A DNA stretch of 28,872 bases from a virus, in IMG/VR virus record IMGVR_UViG_3300044904_000293, positions 1-28,872 of that record; one strand, given 5' to 3'. This document shows positions 1,461 through 24,072 of the stretch, piece by piece. Within the stretch, counting starts at the first letter, position 1, and the number at the start of each line of letters is the position of its first letter. Below the pieces are notes generated by a model, which was not told where the DNA came from, did not search any database, and worked only from the letters and a program-made list of their open reading frames with translations. The position numbers were made by a program, and so were the translations under genes.

Positions 1461-1912
1461 TACGGCGCTCGAGATGGTGCTGATTGCAGACCCAGCCCTT
1501 ACGGGCTGGGCTAACTTGTGGCGCGCTTACAGCGCTGGGACCTTTGGAGAAGAGGAGCCAAGAGCGAAGACAAGAGGGTTGGTGGCGTTGGATCGTCGGA
1601 GCCCACCCTTCGCACAAGACGCGAAGGATGGGGCACCCTCAAGATCATTCGTGCCGTTGCGTAACCGGAGAACCCAAGAGCGGCCTGCCTCCCTCCTGCG
1701 GCGGGCAGGCAGAAGGACAGGCCCTACAAAGACCAAGGCAAAGAATGACCCAAGAACCGACCTGAAGGTCGGCCACTACAAAGGCGCACCCAAGAAACGG
1801 CCGCTACAAAGGCAAACGCAAGAAAAGGACGCAGGGCTCCCGCCAGCAAACGGTGGGCTGAACAGAGCGCGGACTCTCCTTGCGCTACAGGGTGGCCACC
1901 TGAAGGTGGCCG
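1461..1912. repeat. Gene-free block of stem-loop repeats
   Basis: This 450-nt gap holds no convincing gene. It is a string of short hairpins: CCCAGCCC/GGGCTGGG near 1493-1510, a GCCCACCCTTCGC/GCGAAGGATGGGGCACC hairpin at 1600-1642, a TGAA-loop hairpin with stem CCGACC/GGTCGG at 1757-1772 followed by GGCCACTACA, and another with stem GGCCACC/GGTGGCC at 1894-1911 followed by GCTACA. Several copies end in CTACA. The long plus-strand open frame through it (168 codons) is only the translation of these repeats. The last hairpin supplies the stop codon of the MOSC gene. Confidence 0.7.
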
Positions 1913-2997: not shown

Positions 2998-3073
2998 GAT
3001 CCCTCCACTGTGCGGCCCGACGCGCCCAAAGACGGCGCGAAGGAAAAAGTCGGGCCGCTCCGGTCGGGATGAC
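2998..3073. repeat. GATCCC...GGGATGAC palindromic element, copy 1
   Basis: The outer ends ATCCC (2999-3003) and GGGAT (3066-3070) are complementary. Inside them is a perfect 10-bp stem GCGGCCCGAC/GTCGGGCCGC (3012-3021 and 3049-3058). Nine further copies with different inner stems occur in the window, four of them inside coding genes. Confidence 0.8.
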
Positions 3074-3139
3074 AATGCGTGGGAGCGTTGCGGAACGGTT
3101 GAACGGGCTGCGGGAAAATGCTCCAAATATTTTGCTCAG

Positions 3140-4503: not shown

Positions 4504-4531
4504 CACCCGACGGAGAAGAGCGGAGAAGAGA

Positions 4532-4646
4532 GATTCCTCACTTCGCGGACTCCGTTCGGAATGACGGGGCTGGGTAGACGAGCGATGTTGCCGCGATCCC
4601 TCCACTTCGCAGCGGCAAACCGCGCCGCTGCTCCGGCCGGGATGAG
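4532..4646. repeat. Palindromic elements, copies 2 and 3
   Basis: Copy 2 (4532-4565) has ends ATTCC (4533-4537) and GGAAT (4558-4562). Copy 3 (4595-4646) has ends ATCCC (4596-4600) and GGGAT (4639-4643) with an AGCGGC/GCCGCT inner stem. The paired change from ATCCC/GGGAT to ATTCC/GGAAT keeps the outer stem complementary. Confidence 0.8.
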
Positions 4647-7415: not shown

Positions 7416-8960
7416 GTGGAGGGCCAGTACGATCTTGGAAAGGTGTACCACGCCTTCGACAGGCAGCGGGAGTTTCACAATTCCAAGAAGAAATACCGGC
7501 TGTTTGGCGGAGCCGCAGGGCCCGGCAAAACAAAGGCGCTGTTGTGGGAAGCAATCCGCAAGGCGCTCTTACACGATGGGTGCGACACGTTGCTTTTGCG
7601 GCGGACGTTTCCGGAGTTGGAAGGATCGTTGGTTGCTCAATTCCGGCGGGATGTGCCGGCGACCTGGTACCGCAGCTATAACGAGGCGAAGCACATCGTC
7701 ACATGGTGGAACGGGTCCACAACGCGATTCGGGTACTGCCGGAACGAGAATGATGTTTACCAGTACCAGGGCGCGGAGTTTTTGTTCATCGGGATCGATG
7801 AGCTGACGCACTTCACGCTGAAGCAGTGGCAATTTCTGACTTCGCGGAACCGATGCCCGATTCCAGGAACTTTTCCCTGCATGGCGGGGGCGACGAACCC
7901 GGGGAACATCGGGCACGCGTGGGTGAAAGCGCTGTGGGTGGACAAAGAGCCGCCGACGGGATTTGAGAGGCCGGAACAGTATGATCCGGGGGATTACGAC
8001 TTCATACGGGTGCGGATTGAAGACAATCCGATTTACGCGAACGATTTGAATTACCGGAAGACGCTGGAGGCTCTGCCAGAACAATTGCGGAAAGCGTTTC
8101 TGGAGGGGGACTGGAACGTCTTCGCGGGACAGTATTTTGATTTGTTTGAGATTGGACGGCATACAGCGCGGCCGGAAGAGATCGGAATGCGGGAGTGGTG
8201 GCCGCGATGGATTTCGATTGATTGGGGATTTCAGCATCCGAGCGCGGTGTATTGGCATGTGGCGGAGCCGGAGAGAGTGGCCAGTGGCCGGCGACCAGCG
8301 ACCAGTGAGGAAAACTGCGGCCCCCGCATTGTGACTTACCGGGAGTTTGTGCAGAACGGATTGTCGCCGCGGATGCTGGGACAGGCGATTGCGGAGCGGT
8401 GCAAGGGCGAGAAGATCCAGGAGATTTACCTTTCACCGGATGCGTTTGCGCACCGGACGAGCGAGGCTTCGATTGCGGAGCAGCTCGGAGAGGTGCTGGC
8501 GCAGAACGGACTGCCGCGGCCTGTGCCGGCGGATGATGACCGGATTGGCGGATGGCAGTTGATGTATCAAATGCTGGAGCAGGACGCCTGGGTGATTACA
8601 GAGAATTGCGGAAGGTTGATCGAGTGTTTGCCGCAACTTGTGCGGGATAACCGGCGGGTCGAGGACGTGCGGAAGATGGAAGGTGACGACCCGGCGGATG
8701 CGGCGCGGTATGGGATAGTTCTCGGCGCAAGATACGCCGGTGTTGGGGCATCCGCCAGAGGCGGACCCGGGGCGGGGCAGGCTCCGCCCCTTTATTCTCA
8801 GGTGCGATTCATGCCGGGGATGCCGCTGGGAGAACAGATTGCGCGGCAGGTGACGGCGCAGGAACCAACTTCGCGAGCGATTCAGTTTCAGAGGCTGGAG
8901 GCGGAGGCGCGGAAGCAGTTTGGGCCACAGAGGTTGCCGAGGCGGCGGTGGAATTGGTAG
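7416..8960 (+). CDS. terL: Phage terminase large subunit
   Basis: This 514-aa protein starts at GTG 7416 with AGAGAGG upstream. It is the DNA-packaging motor ATPase with a C-terminal nuclease. Walker A is GGAAGPGKT at residues 31-39, Walker B is FLFIGIDE with D128 and E129, and GATNPGN near 155 is the coupling motif. The nuclease domain begins at SIDWGFQHPSAVYW with D269 as a likely metal ligand, and further Asp residues lie in YLSPDAF and ADDDRIGG. Two segments look foreign: residues 288-300 (VASGRRPATSEEN) match the GACCAGCGACCAG repeat, and residues about 443-462 coincide with two small DNA hairpins. Both fall in loops and keep the frame. Confidence 0.95.
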   Translation: MEGQYDLGKVYHAFDRQREFHNSKKKYRLFGGAAGPGKTKALLWEAIRKALLHDGCDTLLLRRTFPELEGSLVAQFRRDVPATWYRSYNEAKHIVTWWNGSTTRFGYCRNENDVYQYQGAEFLFIGIDELTHFTLKQWQFLTSRNRCPIPGTFPCMAGATNPGNIGHAWVKALWVDKEPPTGFERPEQYDPGDYDFIRVRIEDNPIYANDLNYRKTLEALPEQLRKAFLEGDWNVFAGQYFDLFEIGRHTARPEEIGMREWWPRWISIDWGFQHPSAVYWHVAEPERVASGRRPATSEENCGPRIVTYREFVQNGLSPRMLGQAIAERCKGEKIQEIYLSPDAFAHRTSEASIAEQLGEVLAQNGLPRPVPADDDRIGGWQLMYQMLEQDAWVITENCGRLIECLPQLVRDNRRVEDVRKMEGDDPADAARYGIVLGARYAGVGASARGGPGAGQAPPLYSQVRFMPGMPLGEQIARQVTAQEPTSRAIQFQRLEAEARKQFGPQRLPRRRWNW

Positions 8961-8972
8961 GGCGGCTCGGGG

Positions 8973-9338
8973 CTAAAAGGGTGCGTCAGGATCGAAGGAC
9001 CGGCGGACGGCAAGACAGACGTCCCGCATGCGCCGGTTCGACAATGGGCGGGGAAGTCTCTCCACAAGCTGTGCTTTGCGGACAGTATTTATGAAGTAGC
9101 ATTTTAACCAGGAGACGGCAGGTAGCCCGGATTCCCCCGGTTCCATGCGGATTACCGAGGGACCGTCGATGCCCCTCGAGCTAAAAGGAACGACCAGGAC
9201 AGAATCGATGTGGCGGCTGAGGTTGCGCGCATCGAGGGAGAGGATGACCACCCAGTGGCGGATGGGAGGGTCGCCGAGATTGGCAGTCCAAACCTCCCCA
9301 CGATGGGAGACGGGCCAGAGAGGATACTCATCACTCAT
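8973..9338 (-). CDS. MazF/PemK-family endoribonuclease toxin
   Basis: This 121-aa minus-strand protein has the family pattern: RGEVWTANLG near residue 13, a hydrophobic strand HWVVILSLDARN, SVLVVPFSS and the Ser/Pro-containing core that follows. Toxins of this family cleave mRNA, often at ACA-like sites, and halt growth unless bound by the antitoxin. Its start lies inside the end of the antitoxin gene (8-nt overlap), the normal toxin-antitoxin order with the antitoxin first. It sits opposite to the packaging genes, so it is cargo, perhaps maintaining the prophage. A glutamate-to-other change in the active site cannot be judged without alignment. Confidence 0.85.
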   Translation of the reverse strand: MSDEYPLWPVSHRGEVWTANLGDPPIRHWVVILSLDARNLSRHIDSVLVVPFSSRGIDGPSVIRMEPGESGLPAVSWLKCYFINTVRKAQLVERLPRPLSNRRMRDVCLAVRRSFDPDAPF

Positions 9339-9606
9339 CGAAGTTCACCTTCCCTGATTCGTGGGCAAGTGCAAGCCCGAGGGCGCTGTCTTCTGCAATG
9401 TTCTCCTTCGAGAGAGATTCGTAGTAGGCGGCGGTAGCGGCTTCCAGGCGGAGGCGCGACTCGGCGCGGCGGGCGACGGCAACGGCGCGATCCACGGCTT
9501 CGGCCAGATTGGCTGCCTTGCCGCGGCGAACGAGGGATTTGAGGAAGGCGTCGGTCTCAGGGGCTACAGTGGTGGAGATTTTGCGGCGATTGGCGTGGGT
9601 TGACAT
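9331..9606 (-). CDS. Antitoxin of the MazF-like pair
   Basis: The start chosen is ATG 9606 (MSTHANRRKISTTVAPE), giving 91 residues; the frame extends to 9696, but that extension crosses the promoter. Residues about 8-50 (KISTTVAPETDAFLKSLV, then NLAEAVDRAVAVARR) look like a ribbon-helix-helix DNA-binding domain, and the acidic C-terminal part (YYESLSKENIAEDSALG...) should wrap the toxin. Such antitoxins repress their own operon, and an inverted repeat lies just upstream at 9656-9666. Confidence 0.82.
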   Translation of the reverse strand: MSTHANRRKISTTVAPETDAFLKSLVRRGKAANLAEAVDRAVAVARRAESRLRLEAATAAYYESLSKENIAEDSALGLALAHESGKVNFDE

Positions 9607-9648
9607 GGCAGTTTTCTCTACTGTGCAAGCATAGCACAATATCCGACA

Positions 9649-9696
9649 ATTATAGGACATTTTGTCTGTCATAGTGTTGGGCCTTTTATCTGACAT
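9649..9696 (-). promoter_or_regulatory. Toxin-antitoxin promoter and candidate operator
   Basis: On the minus strand a perfect TATAAT (complement of 9649-9654) lies 43 nt upstream of the antitoxin start; no good -35 box is seen. Overlapping its upstream side are the inverted repeat GACATTTTGTC (9656-9666) and two near-identical direct repeats on the plus strand, TTTTGTCTGTCAT (9660-9672) and TTTTATCTGACAT (9684-9696), 24 nt apart. That spacing places both on about the same DNA face, as expected for cooperative ribbon-helix-helix binding. Confidence 0.55.
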
Positions 9697-10174: not shown

Positions 10175-12886
10175 ATGAGAGACGGCATGGACAATGCGAT
10201 GACAGATTGGGAAGCGGGGATGACGGCACCGGCGGATGGGAATGCGGGGGGTGGAGGAGTTGGACAGAATCTCGGAGGGGTTCCTCGCTCCGGCGAAGCG
10301 CACGGGGCGCACAACCCGCGCTCCGAAGACTCCGTTCGGAATGACGGGCAGGTGAGCCAGGTAGTGGACCTAGGGCCAAACTTCGAGAAGCTGGAGGAGG
10401 AGCGGCCGGAACTGGTGAATGCGCTGCGGGAGTTGGTGCGGCAATACCGGGTCGAGGGAGTGACGGCGCGGATGCACGAGATACGGCGGATTCGCCAGGC
10501 GCGGCTGTTCTGGCAGGGGTTGCAATATGCGTGGTGGAATCCGAATGACATGAACTGGCATTTGCCGTTCGAGCAGAAATTCAATGACGACCGTGCGCTG
10601 GAGGAGATGCCGCGGTACCAGTTTGTGACGAACTTTTATCAGGGATTTGGGCTGTCGTTTATCGCGGTGCTTTCGCAGGATGTGCCAAGCGTGCGGTTCT
10701 ATCCACAGTCCGCACAATCGCTGGTGGATATTGCCGCGGCGCGGGCGGCGAGCGATGTGTCGGAGTTAGTCGAGCGAAATAACCATGTGGAACACCTGCT
10801 GACTTCGATTGGGTATTTTTTGTGGACGGATGGGAAGCTGGGCGCGTATGTGCGGTACGTGAAGGATGGGCAGCGGTTTGGTTTTCGTGAGGAAGAGGTA
10901 TTGGAGGCGGTCGAGATACCGCTGGGCATTGACACGTGGGTTTGCCCGGAGTGTGGGAAGGAGACGCCAGTTGGGAGCGGCCAGGGAATAGAGGATGGCG
11001 ACCAGCGATCGGCGACCAGCGACCAGGAAAGTGCGGAAGACGCGGGGAACTTGCCGCGATCCCTCGACTCCGGTCTGCAGAAGGCGCAGACCTCCGCTCG
11101 GGATGACAATCGCGGAAGGGATGGAAACCCCCGTACCTCCGCTCGGGATGACAATTACGGATTTGATGGGGATGACGGAGTGGTGGGTGGTGGCGCGGGC
11201 GGCGGCCTCGCGGGTCAGAACAATCGCAATGCGGATGACGATGAGATCCTTCGGTCAGCGAAGAACGCTGACACCAGGATGACAGCGCCTTCGTTTACCT
11301 GCCCACAGTGCGGGGCGGAGTTGGGGGAGAAGGATTTGCGGAGGGCGGAGCGGGTGACGGTGCCGCGCGTGGTGGAGACGCGGCGGGTGGCGAATGGGCA
11401 GGAAGTGATTTCGATTGCCGGCGGGCTGGAGCTGAATACTCCCGTATGGGCGAACGAGATGCACGAGTATCCGTACCTGCAATGGCAGGCGGAAGTACAC
11501 CGCGCGAAATTGAAGGCGGCGTATCCGCTGGCGGCGGGGAAGATCGAGTCGGCGCCATCGCAGGGTCCGGAGGATGTGTATGCGCGCGTGTCGCGGCTGA
11601 GCGTGGAGCAGGGATTGCCTTCGATTCATCCTGGCGACGCGTTGATGAACTTGATTACGTTTGACCGGACGTGGCTGCGGCCGTGGGCATTTTACGGGAT
11701 TGAAGATGAAGAGGTGAGGAACGAGCTGCTGGCGCTATTCCCGGACGGTTGCTACGTGGGGTTTGCGGGCGATGTGTACTGCGAGGCGCGCAACGAAAAC
11801 ATGGACGATCACTGGCGGGTGCTGCACGCGCTGCCGGGAGACGGGCAGAACCGGCCGAGCGTGGGCGATTCGCTGGTGCAGGTGCAGGAGCGCTACAACA
11901 CGCTGAGCAACATGCAGGCGGAGACGTATGAGTATGGCATTCCGCCGATCTATGCCGACCCGCAGGTGTTGGACTTTGACGCGCTGGCGAACCAGGTGGC
12001 GGAACCAGCGGCGCACTTTCCGGCGCGAGCGAGGCCGGGGCAGCCCTTGGCGGCAGGATTTTTCCAGCCGGCTGCGGCGCAGGTGCCCCCGGACATGATT
12101 CGTCACCAGCAGGATTTGATTGGGCCGGTGTCGCAATTTTTGACGGGGCTGTTTCCGGCGGTGTTTGGCGGAAACATGGAGGACGTGAAGACGGCGAGCG
12201 GGTATGCAATGGCGCGCGACCAGGCGATGGGCCGATTGGGATTGGTGTGGCGGCGGCTGAAACAGTTTTACGGCGAGGTAATGCTGCTGGGCGTGGACTG
12301 CTTCCGGAAGAACCGGCCGGAGGACGTGGATGTGCTGCTGCTGGGGCCGGATGGGACGCTGGACGCGCGGATGATCCGCGTCGGCGATTTGAAAGGGAAT
12401 ATTTGCGTGCACCCGGAGACAGATGAGACGTTCCCGCGGCTGAAATCGCAACAACGCGGCGTGCTGCAGCAGTTGTTTGGGCTGAAGGATCCGCTGATTC
12501 AAGAGGCGCTGGCTGATCCGGCGAACCTTGGGTACATCAAGAATGTGTTGGGATTGACGGAGCTGGTGATTCCGGGGGAGGACTCGCGGAACAAACAGTT
12601 GCGGGAGATACAGCAGTTACTGGGGAGCGCGCCGATTGTGGTGGGGAGAGGCGACCAGCGATCAGCGAGCGGCGATCAGGAGGCAGGAATTGTGGTGCTG
12701 CCGTCGGTGGCGGTGGATTTGTTGATGGATGAGCATGCGGTGGAGTTTGAAGAGTGCAAGAGGTGGGCGAATTCGGAGGCGGGGCAGTCGGCAAAGATGA
12801 CGAATCCGGTGGGATTCGCGAATGTGCGGGCGCACGCGGAAGCGCATTTGCGGGCGATGCAGGGGACCGTGACGCGTGGCTCGTGA
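10175..12886 (+). CDS. Phage portal protein with in-frame repeat insertions
   Basis: The start chosen is ATG 10175 with AGAGAAGAG upstream; the frame is open from 10016, but through repeat DNA. The 903-aa protein is called portal from its position between terminase and scaffold/capsid and from its C-terminal half, which contains long amphipathic helices (TASGYAMARDQAMGRLGLVW) and the typical DQPGAR-like Pro-rich loop near LAAGFFQPAAAQVPPDM. It is long for a portal, partly because of insertions: residues about 36-57 (palindrome), about 275-370 (several repeats) and 826-836 (GDQRSASGDQE). The middle block separates CPEC (257-260) from CPQC (376-379), the two knuckles of a zinc ribbon. The portal forms the dodecameric DNA gate of the head. 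Confidence 0.88.
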   Translation: MRDGMDNAMTDWEAGMTAPADGNAGGGGVGQNLGGVPRSGEAHGAHNPRSEDSVRNDGQVSQVVDLGPNFEKLEEERPELVNALRELVRQYRVEGVTARMHEIRRIRQARLFWQGLQYAWWNPNDMNWHLPFEQKFNDDRALEEMPRYQFVTNFYQGFGLSFIAVLSQDVPSVRFYPQSAQSLVDIAAARAASDVSELVERNNHVEHLLTSIGYFLWTDGKLGAYVRYVKDGQRFGFREEEVLEAVEIPLGIDTWVCPECGKETPVGSGQGIEDGDQRSATSDQESAEDAGNLPRSLDSGLQKAQTSARDDNRGRDGNPRTSARDDNYGFDGDDGVVGGGAGGGLAGQNNRNADDDEILRSAKNADTRMTAPSFTCPQCGAELGEKDLRRAERVTVPRVVETRRVANGQEVISIAGGLELNTPVWANEMHEYPYLQWQAEVHRAKLKAAYPLAAGKIESAPSQGPEDVYARVSRLSVEQGLPSIHPGDALMNLITFDRTWLRPWAFYGIEDEEVRNELLALFPDGCYVGFAGDVYCEARNENMDDHWRVLHALPGDGQNRPSVGDSLVQVQERYNTLSNMQAETYEYGIPPIYADPQVLDFDALANQVAEPAAHFPARARPGQPLAAGFFQPAAAQVPPDMIRHQQDLIGPVSQFLTGLFPAVFGGNMEDVKTASGYAMARDQAMGRLGLVWRRLKQFYGEVMLLGVDCFRKNRPEDVDVLLLGPDGTLDARMIRVGDLKGNICVHPETDETFPRLKSQQRGVLQQLFGLKDPLIQEALADPANLGYIKNVLGLTELVIPGEDSRNKQLREIQQLLGSAPIVVGRGDQRSASGDQEAGIVVLPSVAVDLLMDEHAVEFEECKRWANSEAGQSAKMTNPVGFANVRAHAEAHLRAMQGTVTRGS
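10280..10345. repeat. Palindromic element, copy 4, inside the portal gene
   Basis: Ends GTTCC and GGAAT can pair with one G-T wobble. The right half, CGAAGACTCCGTTCGGAATGAC, closely matches the intergenic copies at 4532 and 18758. It is read in frame and encodes part of the N-terminal Arg/Ser/Gly-rich segment. Confidence 0.7.
10998..11283. repeat. Repeat cluster inside the portal zinc ribbon
   Basis: In order: a GACCAGCGATC tract (10998-11028, encoding GDQRSATSDQE), a palindromic element (11058-11110) with ends ATCCC/GGGAT and inner stem GGTCTGC/GCAGACC, a partial right end (11132-11155), and another element (11245-11283) with ends ATCCT/AGGAT and inner stem TCAGCG/CGCTGA. All are in one open frame. 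Confidence 0.8.
12650..12681. repeat. GACCAGCGATCAG tract inside the portal gene
   Basis: The tract encodes GDQRSASGDQE at residues 826-836, nearly the same peptide and the same frame as at 10998-11028 in this gene and at 13656-13688 in the scaffold gene. Confidence 0.75.
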
Positions 12887-12929
12887 GACGTAAGAAGAAA
12901 GCCACTTTTAGTGTGCAGAGGTAAGGACT

Positions 12930-12959
12930 GGCTCTGACTTGTCGGAGCCATTTTTGTTT
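12930..12959 (+). terminator. Intrinsic terminator between portal and scaffold
   Basis: GGCTCTGA (12930-12937) pairs with TCGGAGCC (12942-12949) around a 4-nt loop and is followed by ATTTTTGTTTG. Layout and the preceding AGTGTG match the hairpin at 2925-2956. If it works, it separates portal from head genes or acts as an attenuator. Confidence 0.65.
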
Positions 12960-12992
12960 GTGGAACACGGCAGGAATACGGGTGCGGCGAAT

Positions 12993-14351
12993 ATGGATGG
13001 AACTACAAGTGAAGTGTTTGCGCTGACGGATGAGCAGATATTGGGGATGGAGCCGGGAGAAGAAGTGGCGAGTGGCGAGTGGCGAGTGACGAGCGGACAA
13101 GACGCGGCGAGCAAGCCGGGATCCCTCGACTCCGGTCTGCAAAATGCGCAGACCTCCGCTCGGGATGACAATCCTGCGGTAGGGACGAAAAGCGGACAGG
13201 AAGCCAGAACTTCCGATGGGGAATGGCGAGAGGCACAGTCCGTCTTACAACAGGAAGGGCAGGTGGCACGGGGTGTGCCACAGGCGCCGCCACAGTGGCT
13301 GGCGGAGAGGATGCGTGATCCCTGGCATGGGGATGAGGCCAAGGAGTTGTGGGAAGGCGCGGTGCAGGCGCGGCAGGAGGCGGCGGCTTATCGCGAGGCG
13401 ATTGCTACGCCCGCGGAGGCTCGCGCATTGAAGGAGATTTATCCCGGCGGAGTGAACGAGGCGAAAACGGCGGCGGAACGCGCGCGGCAACTGGAGGAGT
13501 TTGATGCGGCGTATTTTGGCGCAGCGGGGAAGCCGGCGGAGGCAATGAGCGCGGCCAGGGTGCAATTGGCGCAGAGATTGATGGAGCAGGACCCGGGAGC
13601 GTTTCGAGAGATGGTGGCGGCGGGAGTGAGGTTGCTGGAGGGGAGAGGAAAGGACGGTGACCAGCGACCAGCGAGCGGCGACCAGGAAGAGAAAAGCAGA
13701 TCCCTCAGGCCTGAAGGCCTGAGCTACAACGCTCGGGATGACAAATCTCTTCCAATTCGTGCGGCGGTGCAGGAAGTGCCAGCGGCTTATGTGAGTTTTG
13801 AGAAGGCGGCGAATGCGGAGTTGGAGAAGAGCGTGGGCGGGACGATTGCGCGGGCGATCGAGAGCGCGCTGCCGAATTTGAAGAGCCTGGATCGCGCGGG
13901 ACGGGACGGGGCAGCGCAGGGGACGCCTCTGCCGGAGAGGTTGGGGATGGCGGTGCGCGAGGAAGTGGAAGCGGCGTTGAAGAGCGACGCGCAATTGGGC
14001 GAACAGGTGGCGCGGATTTTGGGGGCGCGGCGGTTTGACGATGCGGTACGGGCGCAGGTGGTACACGTGATCGATGCGCGGGCACAACAATTGGTGCCGG
14101 GCGCGGTGAAGCGGGTGGTGGGAAGTTGGACTACGGCGACTTTGGGAACGAGAGGGAAAAGCCCGGCGGCGGAAGCAGGAGCCGCGACGAGGAGCGAAGT
14201 GAAGGGGAATGCGGCGCCACGGTCCGGGAAAAGCGGGCAGAGCGCGGGGAGGAATGAGAAGGCGGAGGCGCGTGTGCCCGGGCGAACGGCAAGCCGAGGG
14301 CGGGTGGATTACGGGAAGTTGAGCGACGAACAGATTTTGGATATGAGCTAG
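12993..14351 (+). CDS. Probable capsid scaffolding protein with in-frame repeats
   Basis: The start chosen is ATG 12993; a TTG at 12939 would lie inside the terminator hairpin. The 452-aa product is hydrophilic, Ala/Glu/Arg rich and mostly helical, the profile of a scaffold, and lies between portal and capsid genes. Its first residues contain LTDEQILGM and its last LSDEQILDM, so a short motif is repeated at both ends. Three in-frame repeat insertions are visible: residues 43-60 (SLDSGLQNAQTSARDDN), 222-232 (GDQRPASGDQE) and 236-250 (SLRPEGLSYNARDD). A scaffold directs shell assembly around the portal and then leaves. A scaffold tolerates insertions better than other head proteins, which may explain the repeats. 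Confidence 0.78.
   Translation: MDGTTSEVFALTDEQILGMEPGEEVASGEWRVTSGQDAASKPGSLDSGLQNAQTSARDDNPAVGTKSGQEARTSDGEWREAQSVLQQEGQVARGVPQAPPQWLAERMRDPWHGDEAKELWEGAVQARQEAAAYREAIATPAEARALKEIYPGGVNEAKTAAERARQLEEFDAAYFGAAGKPAEAMSAARVQLAQRLMEQDPGAFREMVAAGVRLLEGRGKDGDQRPASGDQEEKSRSLRPEGLSYNARDDKSLPIRAAVQEVPAAYVSFEKAANAELEKSVGGTIARAIESALPNLKSLDRAGRDGAAQGTPLPERLGMAVREEVEAALKSDAQLGEQVARILGARRFDDAVRAQVVHVIDARAQQLVPGAVKRVVGSWTTATLGTRGKSPAAEAGAATRSEVKGNAAPRSGKSGQSAGRNEKAEARVPGRTASRGRVDYGKLSDEQILDMS
13120..13170. repeat. Palindromic element inside the scaffold gene (a)
   Basis: Ends ATCCC (13121-13125) and GGGAT (13162-13166), inner stem GGTCTGC/GCAGACC. It matches the portal copy at 11058-11110 with two differences over about 52 nt and is read in the same frame. 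Confidence 0.85.
13656..13742. repeat. GACCAGCGACC tract plus nested palindromic element (b)
   Basis: The tract at 13656-13688 is followed by an element with ends ATCCC (13700-13704) and GGGAT (13735-13739). Its interior is itself a TGAA-loop hairpin, CTCAGGCC-TGAA-GGCCTGAG (13704-13723), plus CTACA. These 25 nt are identical to the intergenic hairpin at 20354-20378. Confidence 0.85.
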
Positions 14352-15750: not shown

Positions 15751-17007
15751 ATGCCAGCACAAGCAAACGCGAATGTCATCGCGTTGCAGCTCGAGAAGGT
15801 GCGCGACAAGGTACCTTTGCTGTATGAGCGCGACGACATTCTTTTGACGATGATCCAGCAACGGGGGGACGTGGAGAAAGTCTCTTCACGAAACATGCGC
15901 CTGCCGTTGCAAGTAAATCCCGGTGGAAAGGCCGGGTCGTATAACGCAGACGGCGGCGACCTGGGCCGCGGCACAGGAACCGCCTATGACGTCGCGCAGG
16001 TGTCGCCTATTTTCTTCCGCTTCGCGATTGAAATCACGAAGCTGGTGGAATACGCGACGACCGGAAGGGAACGCGCGATTGAAAACGCGGCCAAGCGCGA
16101 AGTGGCCAACGGAATGAAGCAGTTCCGTGCGTTCCTTGACAAGCTGATTCAGACGGCGGGGAACGGGGTGCTGGGAACGATCAGTTCGTTTGCCAGCACG
16201 ACATGGACGATGAGCGTGCCGAGCGGCGCGGCGCTGGTGTATGTGGGGCAGACGATCCAGGTCTACGACTCGACGCTGACGACCAACCGCGGCACGTGCA
16301 ACGTGGTGGCGGCTGACCCGATCAGCCCGACGCAGACGATTACCGTGGACGCGAATCCGAGCGGACTGACGAACGGCGACGTGATCGTGCACGACGGGTT
16401 GAGCGGAGCTTCGCCGGTATCGTTGTTCGGGATCAAGTATCACCAGAACAACGCGACAACAGGCACGTGGCTCAACTTGAATCGCGCGACCTATCCGGTG
16501 CAACTGGCCACATCGCGCGTGAATGCGGGCAATGCGGCGCTGACGCCGGCGAACGTGCGCCTGGCGATCAACAAGGTGCGCAAGGCGTTGGGGATCAACC
16601 ACCTCAGCAAGCTGATCGCGTACATGGCGGTCGAGCAGGAGCATGCCTGGGAAAATCTGGGCATCACGGTGAGCTCGATCATCAAGGAAGGCGGCGGCGG
16701 AAACGGGAACGATCTGGATCTGCTGTTCACCGGACGGAAGACGATGAGCGGGATTCCGATCAAGTCCAGCGTGAATGCGGACCAGACGCGCGTGGACTTT
16801 CTGGACCTGGCGCACTGGGGCCGCGCCGTGTTGAAGGACATTGATTTTTACGAGGTCAATGGCAACACGGTGTTCCCGATTTACGGGGCGAGCGGCGGAC
16901 TGGCGGCGTCGTACATCTTCTACTTTGATACGGCTTTTCAACTTTGGTCAGACAGCCCGCGCAGCGGTGCGTACATTGATACGCTTGCTCGCCCACAGGG
17001 TTATTAG
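15751..17007 (+). CDS. Major capsid protein
   Basis: This 418-aa protein starts at ATG 15751 with AAGGAGAAAC upstream. Its pattern fits an HK97-fold shell protein: N-terminal helical arm, a central spine helix (AAKREVANGMKQFRAFLDKL, about residues 111-130), a beta-rich insertion (about 145-240), and a C-terminal A-domain with YIFYFDTAFQLWSD near residue 393. It is the size and position of a coat protein after a scaffold. No insertion repeats are visible in it, in contrast to portal and scaffold, consistent with tight packing constraints. Confidence 0.88.
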   Translation: MPAQANANVIALQLEKVRDKVPLLYERDDILLTMIQQRGDVEKVSSRNMRLPLQVNPGGKAGSYNADGGDLGRGTGTAYDVAQVSPIFFRFAIEITKLVEYATTGRERAIENAAKREVANGMKQFRAFLDKLIQTAGNGVLGTISSFASTTWTMSVPSGAALVYVGQTIQVYDSTLTTNRGTCNVVAADPISPTQTITVDANPSGLTNGDVIVHDGLSGASPVSLFGIKYHQNNATTGTWLNLNRATYPVQLATSRVNAGNAALTPANVRLAINKVRKALGINHLSKLIAYMAVEQEHAWENLGITVSSIIKEGGGGNGNDLDLLFTGRKTMSGIPIKSSVNADQTRVDFLDLAHWGRAVLKDIDFYEVNGNTVFPIYGASGGLAASYIFYFDTAFQLWSDSPRSGAYIDTLARPQGY

Positions 17008-17032: not shown

Positions 17033-17683
17033 CTATCGATGGTGACGGAGGAACACTTCCGCTGTCATGGAATGTTTTCGCTGGTTGCAGCGGAGGCACG
17101 ACGGGACAAGGTTTGAAATCTCGTTTGTTCCTCCGCGCACCAGTGGGGTTCTGTGGTCGCGGCTTCTATTCTTCTTGTTGAGTGTTGTTCCACAGTACGC
17201 GCAGCGGAAGTTGAAGCGCACAAGGAGAGCCCGCCAGTCTTGAAGACTGATGTAGCAGGATTTGCCAGACCGCTTGGCTCGCGCAATTCGAGACTGATAA
17301 CGCCTTTTCTCAGGATCGCGCCAATATCGCGCGCGATCGATGGCGTGAAATCTCTCTGGGTTATTGATCCGTTTTTGTTGTCTCGCGGCGTTAATTTGAC
17401 CGCGATGCCGATGATGAAAGCGGCGTCGCTTGGCGAGAAGAGTCTGATGAATTTCCTCGTCTGTCCTTTTCTGTCTTCGCTTCCCAAGCTTTTCACCGCG
17501 AACCTTGCGGCGATGGGCGCGCGCCCATTCCTTCTGGTAGGCACGCGTCTCCTTAAGGTTCTCAGCGCGATATCTACGCTGGTATTCGCGCTGATAGGCC
17601 CTATAACGCGCGACCCATTGCGGGTCGCTCAAGCGACGCTCCTTATATCTGCGGCGCCGGTCGCCAGGGTTCTTGTAAGGCAT
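17033..17683 (-). CDS. Free-standing HNH endonuclease
   Basis: This 216-aa minus-strand protein has an Arg/Lys/Tyr-rich N terminus (many RYR, KRR and RRY units, probably DNA-binding helices) and a C-terminal HNH domain: CAYCG near 165, SRDHRTPLVRGGTNEISNLV with the catalytic His, then CLRCNQRKH. The zinc-type Cys pairs and the DH...N...H order are intact. HNH nucleases of this kind home between phage genomes. It starts at 17683, where it overlaps an alternative start of the next gene, and ends 26 nt after the capsid stop. Confidence 0.88.
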   Translation of the reverse strand: MPYKNPGDRRRRYKERRLSDPQWVARYRAYQREYQRRYRAENLKETRAYQKEWARAHRRKVRGEKLGKRRQKRTDEEIHQTLLAKRRRFHHRHRGQINAARQQKRINNPERFHAIDRARYWRDPEKRRYQSRIARAKRSGKSCYISLQDWRALLVRFNFRCAYCGTTLNKKNRSRDHRTPLVRGGTNEISNLVPSCLRCNQRKHSMTAEVFLRHHR

Positions 17684-18581: not shown

Positions 18582-18920
18582 GGAAGTTGTCAGTTTTCAG
18601 TTATTAGTTCCAAGTTTCCGAAAAGAGAAAAACTAAGAGAAGAGAAGAAAGTCGGTGGCGCTAGGGCGTAAGAGCCCACCCTCATAACCCCGAGGGTGGG
18701 GCACCCGCAAGTTCAGGGGAGCTGTGACGTTGGTAGGAAAATCCAAGAGTGAAGAGGGATTCCTGACTCCGCGGACTCCGTTCGGAATGACGGGTGATTG
18801 CTATGGGTTCCTTTCCTCCGAAAGATTGGGGGAATCGGAATGACCCTGCGATAGGTTTAGATGCGCTGGCCGATTGATGGAGACGAGCAAGAGAGAATCC
18901 AGTAGGGGGGGGGAAAAACT
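18582..18920. repeat. Gene-free repeat region before the adaptor gene
   Basis: From left to right: TCAGTTTTCAGTTATTAG tract, a hairpin CCACCCTC/GAGGGTGG followed by GGCACCC (18674-18706), and a palindromic element (18758-18791) with ends ATTCC/GGAAT. A run of nine G (18905-18913) lies just before the next start and overlaps its ribosome-binding site. No gene was seen. Confidence 0.75.
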
Positions 18921-20353: not shown

Positions 20354-20378
20354 CTCAGGCCTGAAGGCCTGAGCTACA
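20354..20378. repeat. TGAA-loop hairpin identical to one inside the scaffold gene
   Basis: CTCAGGCC-TGAA-GGCCTGAG plus CTACA; the 25 nt are identical to 13704-13728. It ends 30 nt before the spike start at 20408. Confidence 0.8.
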
Positions 20379-23848: not shown

Positions 23849-23926
23849 AGGCAGGACCGGCAGAACAGGCTGGTCCGGGCTAATTCCAGGCAGTGCAGTT
23901 CAGCCCGAAATCCGAAGCTGAAGAGG

Positions 23927-23978
23927 GATTCCTCCGCTCCGGGACGGCCAAAAGCGCCGTCCCTCCGGTCGGAATGAC
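23927..23978. repeat. Palindromic element, copy 10
   Basis: Ends ATTCC (23928-23932) and GGAAT (23971-23975), inner stem GGGACGGC/GCCGTCCC (23941-23948 and 23956-23963). It lies in the gap before the zinc-ribbon gene. Confidence 0.8.
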
Positions 23979-24072
23979 AGGTTTTGGAAGTTTGTTGGCA
24001 TGGGGTACGTACAAGCAGGCAAGTAGTTCACCATCTTCGATTTCAGAAACAGAAAAACAATTTGAGGAAAAC

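Follow-up and report, generated by a model that had tools for sequence, protein, structure and literature searches.

Hairpin-forming host repeats inserted in frame into loops of three packaging and head-assembly genes of related Acidobacteriota phages

Rickettsia palindromic elements (RPEs), of ~150 bp, lie in frame in unrelated metabolic genes of Rickettsia bacteria, encode a recurring peptide, and are missing from homologues (PMC10969869). Intragenic MITEs (ERIC, BOX, and others), which are small non-autonomous repeats, can likewise fuse in frame with genes (PMC10969869). Intragenic REPs (GTAG and CGTC families) are short palindromes that are abundant between host genes and sometimes occur inside ORFs, singly or in groups (PMC3733652). 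Phage genes are not mentioned in the available parts of PMC10969869 and PMC3733652. A sequence-only reading of the DNA studied here had named the RPE as the known parallel for repeats inside proteins and knew of none in phage virion genes. The parallel is sound, and the intragenic REPs of many bacteria provide a second one (PMC3733652); our literature search, with limited coverage of subscription papers, also found no case in phage virion genes.

In this study, short hairpin-forming repeats, scattered through the chromosomes of soil Acidobacteriota hosts, were found to have been inserted repeatedly, and in frame, into exposed loops of three packaging and head-assembly genes of related phages. 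Similar to RPEs, the phage inserts are palindromic DNA with covarying outer arms and inner stems, they are missing from homologues with aligned flanks, and an extended unit lies in frame in unrelated genes (TerL, portal, and scaffold) with one recurring peptide. In contrast, they span ~50–75 nt, occupy packaging and assembly genes of Acidobacteriota phages, comprise several unrelated families at shared loops, and include one phage-only version. We did not file them as RPEs because the host group is Acidobacteriota; the likeness is one of behaviour. As with REPs, a short palindrome has many similar copies per host genome; however, no linked RAYT gene was found at 12 Y1-transposase loci, the bearing genes are viral, and the likeness is one of form and abundance. 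REPs seldom overlap coding sequence; for the repeats studied here the picture is mixed, with somewhat more than half of the host copies outside ORFs and many phage copies inside real genes. As for MITE features, no IS-like terminal inverted repeats or target-site duplication were seen, although no clean empty-site pair was found for the extended unit.

The window, meaning the whole stretch of DNA analyzed, comes from IMG/VR as a virus record of 28.9 kb that has no host genome attached, and the host tiles used for comparison belong to the hosts of its relatives, not to its own host. The genes concerned are as follows.

7416..8960, + strand: terminase large subunit (TerL); Pfam Terminase_3, 6e-6; phrog_979, 1.4e-38
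10175..12886, + strand: portal-like gene, 903 aa, an open frame with three repeat-bearing sites; assigned as portal with moderate confidence
12993..14351, + strand: putative scaffold gene, 452 aa, placed between the portal and the major head protein; mostly helical model
15751-17007: major head protein, downstream of the putative scaffold

The portal label is based on weak family matches in relatives (Pfam P22_portal, E 0.004, in three of 16; a phrog portal family, E 0.007, in one), on a connector fold match, and on gene order, the gene following TerL. The top BFVD fold match of the low-confidence model is a podovirus-type head-to-tail connector (E 2.8e-4), and the PDB matches of this poor model (pLDDT 55.5) were not significant, though portals were among them. 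Fold and family searches with the putative scaffold returned no match. Elsewhere in the window, an Acido-Lenti-1 RNA (Rfam RF01687; 56.4 bits) lies at 1491-1536 (+); this motif is listed from Acidobacteria and Lentisphaerae, consistent with the host group. Between TerL and the portal, an overlapping ORF pair at 8973-9338 and 9331-9696 (−) resembles, by eye, a MazF-type toxin and antitoxin. An ORF beside the major head gene (17033-17683, −) has an HNH-endonuclease-like end (CAYCG...SRDHRTPLVRGG), and one at the left end of the record (1913-2716, −) resembles a MOSC-domain protein, a cellular-type gene that may reflect a prophage or cargo.

The repeat copies in the window are listed below.

8271..8313, + strand: B-like repeat in TerL, at the turn that joins YWH to VTYREF, read as VASGRRPATSE; weak host matches, at a TerL repeat hotspot in relatives
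10275..10349, + strand: long form of palindromic element A, lying in the N-terminal linker of the portal and read in the VPR...SVRNDG frame; matches host tile L136 over 75 nt at 86.7%, E 3e-18
10990..11031, + strand: repeat B (GACCAGCGATC type, family D1) in the zinc-knuckle loop, read as GDQRSATSDQE; host matches, E 4e-4
11037..11111, + strand: extended coding palindromic unit, specific to these phages, in the portal, EDAGNLPRSLDSGLQKAQTSARDDN; 11051-11110 matches host DNA, up to 83.6% over 55 nt, E 2e-8
11124..11155, + strand: half copy (3' arm) of element A, read as TSARDDN
11242..11284, + strand: element A variant in another open frame (EILRSAKNADTRMT; DTRMT), with paired outer arms GATCCT/AGGATGACA; weak host match, BLAST E 0.8
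12650..12687, + strand: repeat B where the C-terminal hairpin of the portal turns, with predicted strands 821-824 and 839-842 on either side; host matches, E 0.005-0.02
13062..13097, + strand: B-like repeat (GAGTGGCGAGTG), scaffold site 1; host match, E 4e-5
13099..13173, + strand: extended coding unit, scaffold site 1, QDAASKPGSLDSGLQNAQTSARDDN; 13108-13172 matches host DNA, E 2e-8
13656..13697, + strand: repeat B, scaffold site 2, from host comparison
13699..13745, + strand: element A with a nested palindrome, CTCAGGCCTGAAGGCCTGAG (13704-13723), scaffold site 2; 13702-13742 matches host DNA, E 9e-7
18751..18794, + strand: element A, intergenic copy; others at 2998-3075, 4525-4568, and 23913-23980

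All five in-gene stretches first pointed out in the portal and scaffold are present and repetitive. The two copies placed at 11058 and 13120, whose true 5' limits are 11037 and 13099, encode nearly the same peptide, SLDSGLQKAQTSARDDN and SLDSGLQNAQTSARDDN, both in frame as claimed. The further statement that one and the same element occurs in genes and gaps needs a correction here: the extended form at these two positions differs from the gap form. Beyond that reading, a second repeat occurs inside genes at 10990-11031, 12650-12687, 13656-13697, and 8271-8313 (TerL), with a similar one at 13062-13097. The nested palindrome CTCAGGCCTGAAGGCCTGAG is also found between genes of the window, at 20354-20373; the host match of the copy that contains it extends over 39 nt at 89.7%, nesting included, and 26-27 nt match at 100% elsewhere in the host.

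To place these copies in context, we assembled relatives of the portal gene (79 viral and 38 genome loci), the genome loci being Acidobacteriota MAGs, Candidatus Acidiferrum among them. The alignment comprised 76 non-redundant intact portals, and the host set comprised ~1.56 Mb of chromosome from four Acidobacteriota MAGs with known prophage tiles left out. In the scaffold set, the L011 entry is really a portal copy and was discounted. A search of 50,697 phage records gave no portal match and no insert-DNA match, and Rfam holds no family for the window repeats.

Based on these comparisons, the in-gene segments are the same DNA families as palindromic repeats abundant between genes of Acidobacteriota hosts. 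Short matches of the window (E<=0.05) to tiles of two hosts numbered 161 and 115, the 161 coming from 400 kb of one genome, and the reversed window gave 0. Similarly, when the 76 portals were compared with the 1.56 Mb from host chromosomes, 898 matches reached E<=0.01 and reversed sequences gave 17. Exact TCGGGATGACA occurs 70 and 103 times in two hosts, with 0 occurrences of the reversed pattern. In the main element, the outer arms read ATYCY...RGRAT, GACA comes next, and the inner hairpin varies. Two variable arm positions both form Watson-Crick pairs in 55 of the 64 copies from hosts and in 62 of the 66 from inside genes; because the pairing is kept in four combinations, these positions covary at the DNA or RNA level. 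Of 56 host copies, 32 lie outside ORFs; most of the other 24 fall within short ORFs, and many of these run antisense to the ORF.

Within the portal, host-repeat matches concentrate at three sites (236/390/262), with 10 elsewhere across the 76 portals. Repeats occupy the N-terminal linker in 26 genes (residue coverage 10%), the loop between two CxxC knuckles in 40 (15%), and the C-terminal hairpin turn in 36 (9%), and coverage outside these sites is 0.3%. In the window portal model, residues 1-60 and 272-370 are of low confidence and the C site is a hairpin turn; likewise, two broad repeat regions of the putative scaffold correspond to the low-confidence model regions 31-93 and 224-248 of the window protein. 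TerL has a single site, the YWH/VTYREF turn, which is occupied in 33 of 83 relatives, and no repeat site was found in the major capsid (head) protein among relatives. At least eight palindrome families are involved in all, at least seven of them besides the main one at these sites (e.g., CCCCTGAAGGGGTGAG, GGGGCGCAGCATGCTGCGCCCC, and GACAGGCTGAAGCCTGTC), and one DNA repeat can be read in differing frames at differing sites. The portal zinc loop of L040 carries approximately eleven tandem LVAQG/LVAHG repeats. Since the copies are related by descent and recombination, none of these counts represents independent events.

When the 76 portal homologues were aligned, as had been proposed as a check, the inserts were missing or replaced while the flanks still aligned. 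L069 has a short zinc loop without repeats, and the flanks on its two sides agree with the window at 81 and 88% identity; in distant relatives the C-site hairpin and the TerL turn are minimal. Of the related portals L006 and L045, one lacks precisely the 33-nt inner hairpin of the element A long form. The window and L010 are 99.0% identical in core residues and 91.9% identical in core DNA, and all three sites differ; L004 and L005 are 98.8% identical in core DNA and share almost all of the zinc loop, and their C sites are unrelated in sequence. On a tree built from core columns, the C site shows 10 changes of the main element with 10 carriers, and the zinc loop 12 changes with 20 carriers, numbers that recombination may inflate; counts for repeat B were dropped because its search pattern was loose. 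In the related portal and loop pairs compared, no target-site duplication was seen and no clean one-step empty site was found. L049 and L050 are identical in core DNA and differ at many residues of the N-terminal linker, which may mark a sharp recombination boundary or a contig chimera.

The nearly identical peptide in two genes could suggest an ancestral domain of portal and scaffold. However, such segments are missing in close and distant relatives, the constraint falls on DNA stems rather than residues, and the same DNA is translated in more than one frame and also lies between host genes. The shared ancestral segment named beforehand as the refuting outcome did not occur in the portal alignment; the alignments refute this explanation, which we consider practically untenable. 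Assembly error is a more general concern, given that the sequences are metagenome contigs and that repeats provoke misassembly. It is nonetheless very improbable, as dozens of separate assemblies, including MAG contigs >100 kb, hold in-frame copies at the same sites.

To describe how the inserts are read, we tallied frames in the three genes. Forward copies give RDD or RND 91 times and MT approximately 11 times (conserved non-repeat matches left out), and in reverse the element occurs approximately 11 times, nearly always as VIPSEAR. The element has two open frames forward and three in reverse, and the avoided frames contain cysteine or a TGA stop. The suggestion that the hydrophilic frame was kept thus captures a strong bias to the RDD frame but not a rule, since several frames and orientations are tolerated; the copy noted at 11245 uses the other open frame (DTRMT), which relatives also read. 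In L037, L038, and L094, the element stands in the cysteine-bearing frame, and a frameshift is already present in the portal upstream of it, immediately ahead of the zinc knuckle. Furthermore, pN/pS is 0.024 for the portal core, 1.46 for element codons, and 1.94 for host copies in the matching pseudo-frame, the last value coming from three host copies only. The element values lie near those of host copies while the core is strongly constrained, which indicates that the insert peptide is tolerated rather than conserved. Collectively, constraint is undetectable in the encoded insert peptides and strong in the remainder of the protein.

These values also bear on whether the loops are useful, that is, whether fast-changing TerL, portal, and scaffold loops built from repeats are selected for variety, for example to evade host sensors, with palindromes as raw material. 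STAND-type Avs sensors bind terminase and portal, the insert-bearing genes encode packaging and assembly proteins, and whole loops are swapped between phages with 99% identical core residues as well as in the L004/L005 pair. In contrast, element codons resemble host non-coding copies, distant relatives thrive with minimal loops, and the scaffold, which is not a known sensor target, is equally repeat-rich. On this balance, selection for loop variety appears unlikely.

The extended unit (~75 nt) differs from the other copies in its 5' part. The copies noted at 11058 and 13120 carry ~21 nt of extra 5' sequence in common with copies in relatives at the portal C site, scaffold site 2, and TerL, and this extension is missing from host copies. 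A degenerate pattern for the junction matched 18 contigs in IMG/VR, every one from this phage group, and was found in none of 89 genomes from the host family. Among the fetched loci, 27 of 28 distinct copies lie in scaffold (14), portal (11), and TerL (2), and all 27 in-gene copies are on the sense strand in one frame at five sites. The sole copy outside these genes, L047:4704, lies inside a 113-codon ORF. The 54-nt core of the window scaffold copy (13099..13173) is identical to the portal C-site copy of L011 and L013. It is a tentative possibility, somewhat short of an even chance, that a host repeat gave rise to the extended unit as a separate coding palindromic element carried by phages, restricted to one phage group and specialized for single-frame spread among loops of virion and packaging genes.

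As for mobilization, RAYT proteins were considered and rejected: 35 Y1-transposase matches were found in five of six host genomes, and 0 of 12 fetched loci had the element including its 5' arm. One of these 12 host loci had a short 3' core nearby, without the 5' arm, and no full element copy was found. An alternative, less likely than not but fairly plausible, is that the repeats spread by ectopic recombination or gene conversion between repeat-sharing loops rather than by mobile insertion, with the extended unit as a recombination module. The extended unit has similar ends at unlike sites, the loops are mosaics of the same blocks, and the transposase link was not found, all of which are consistent with such a route; however, it leaves unexplained the first arrival of many unrelated families per site and the sites in different genes without other similarity. 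This alternative concerns the route of spread only and is compatible with the inserts being passengers.

Taken together, the inserts, whose translation in virions is putative, are probably tolerated passengers, similar to RPEs and intragenic REPs, in loops that turn over fast. Host repeats may have been copied into phage DNA while the phage lived in its host, and copies inside genes would persist only where the frame is open and the hydrophilic peptide falls on a disordered loop. With survival limited to open frames and disordered loops, the copies would ride along as tolerated passengers. The loops may then turn over quickly by further insertion, nesting, internal deletion, and loop-to-loop copying, and within this phage group the 5'-extended version would have reached at least five loops across the three genes, always in one frame.

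In-frame palindromic inserts were already known in bacterial genes; here, they reach phage packaging and assembly proteins. Shared sites, many families, and >100 related loci available for comparison make it directly testable how selfish palindromes turn into protein sequence, as a single tree can show how copies arrive, which frame they take, how they are tolerated, and how they turn over. Additionally, the inserts mark natural insertion-tolerant loops in terminase, portal, and scaffold, as well as a phage-specific repeat that appears to move between genes.
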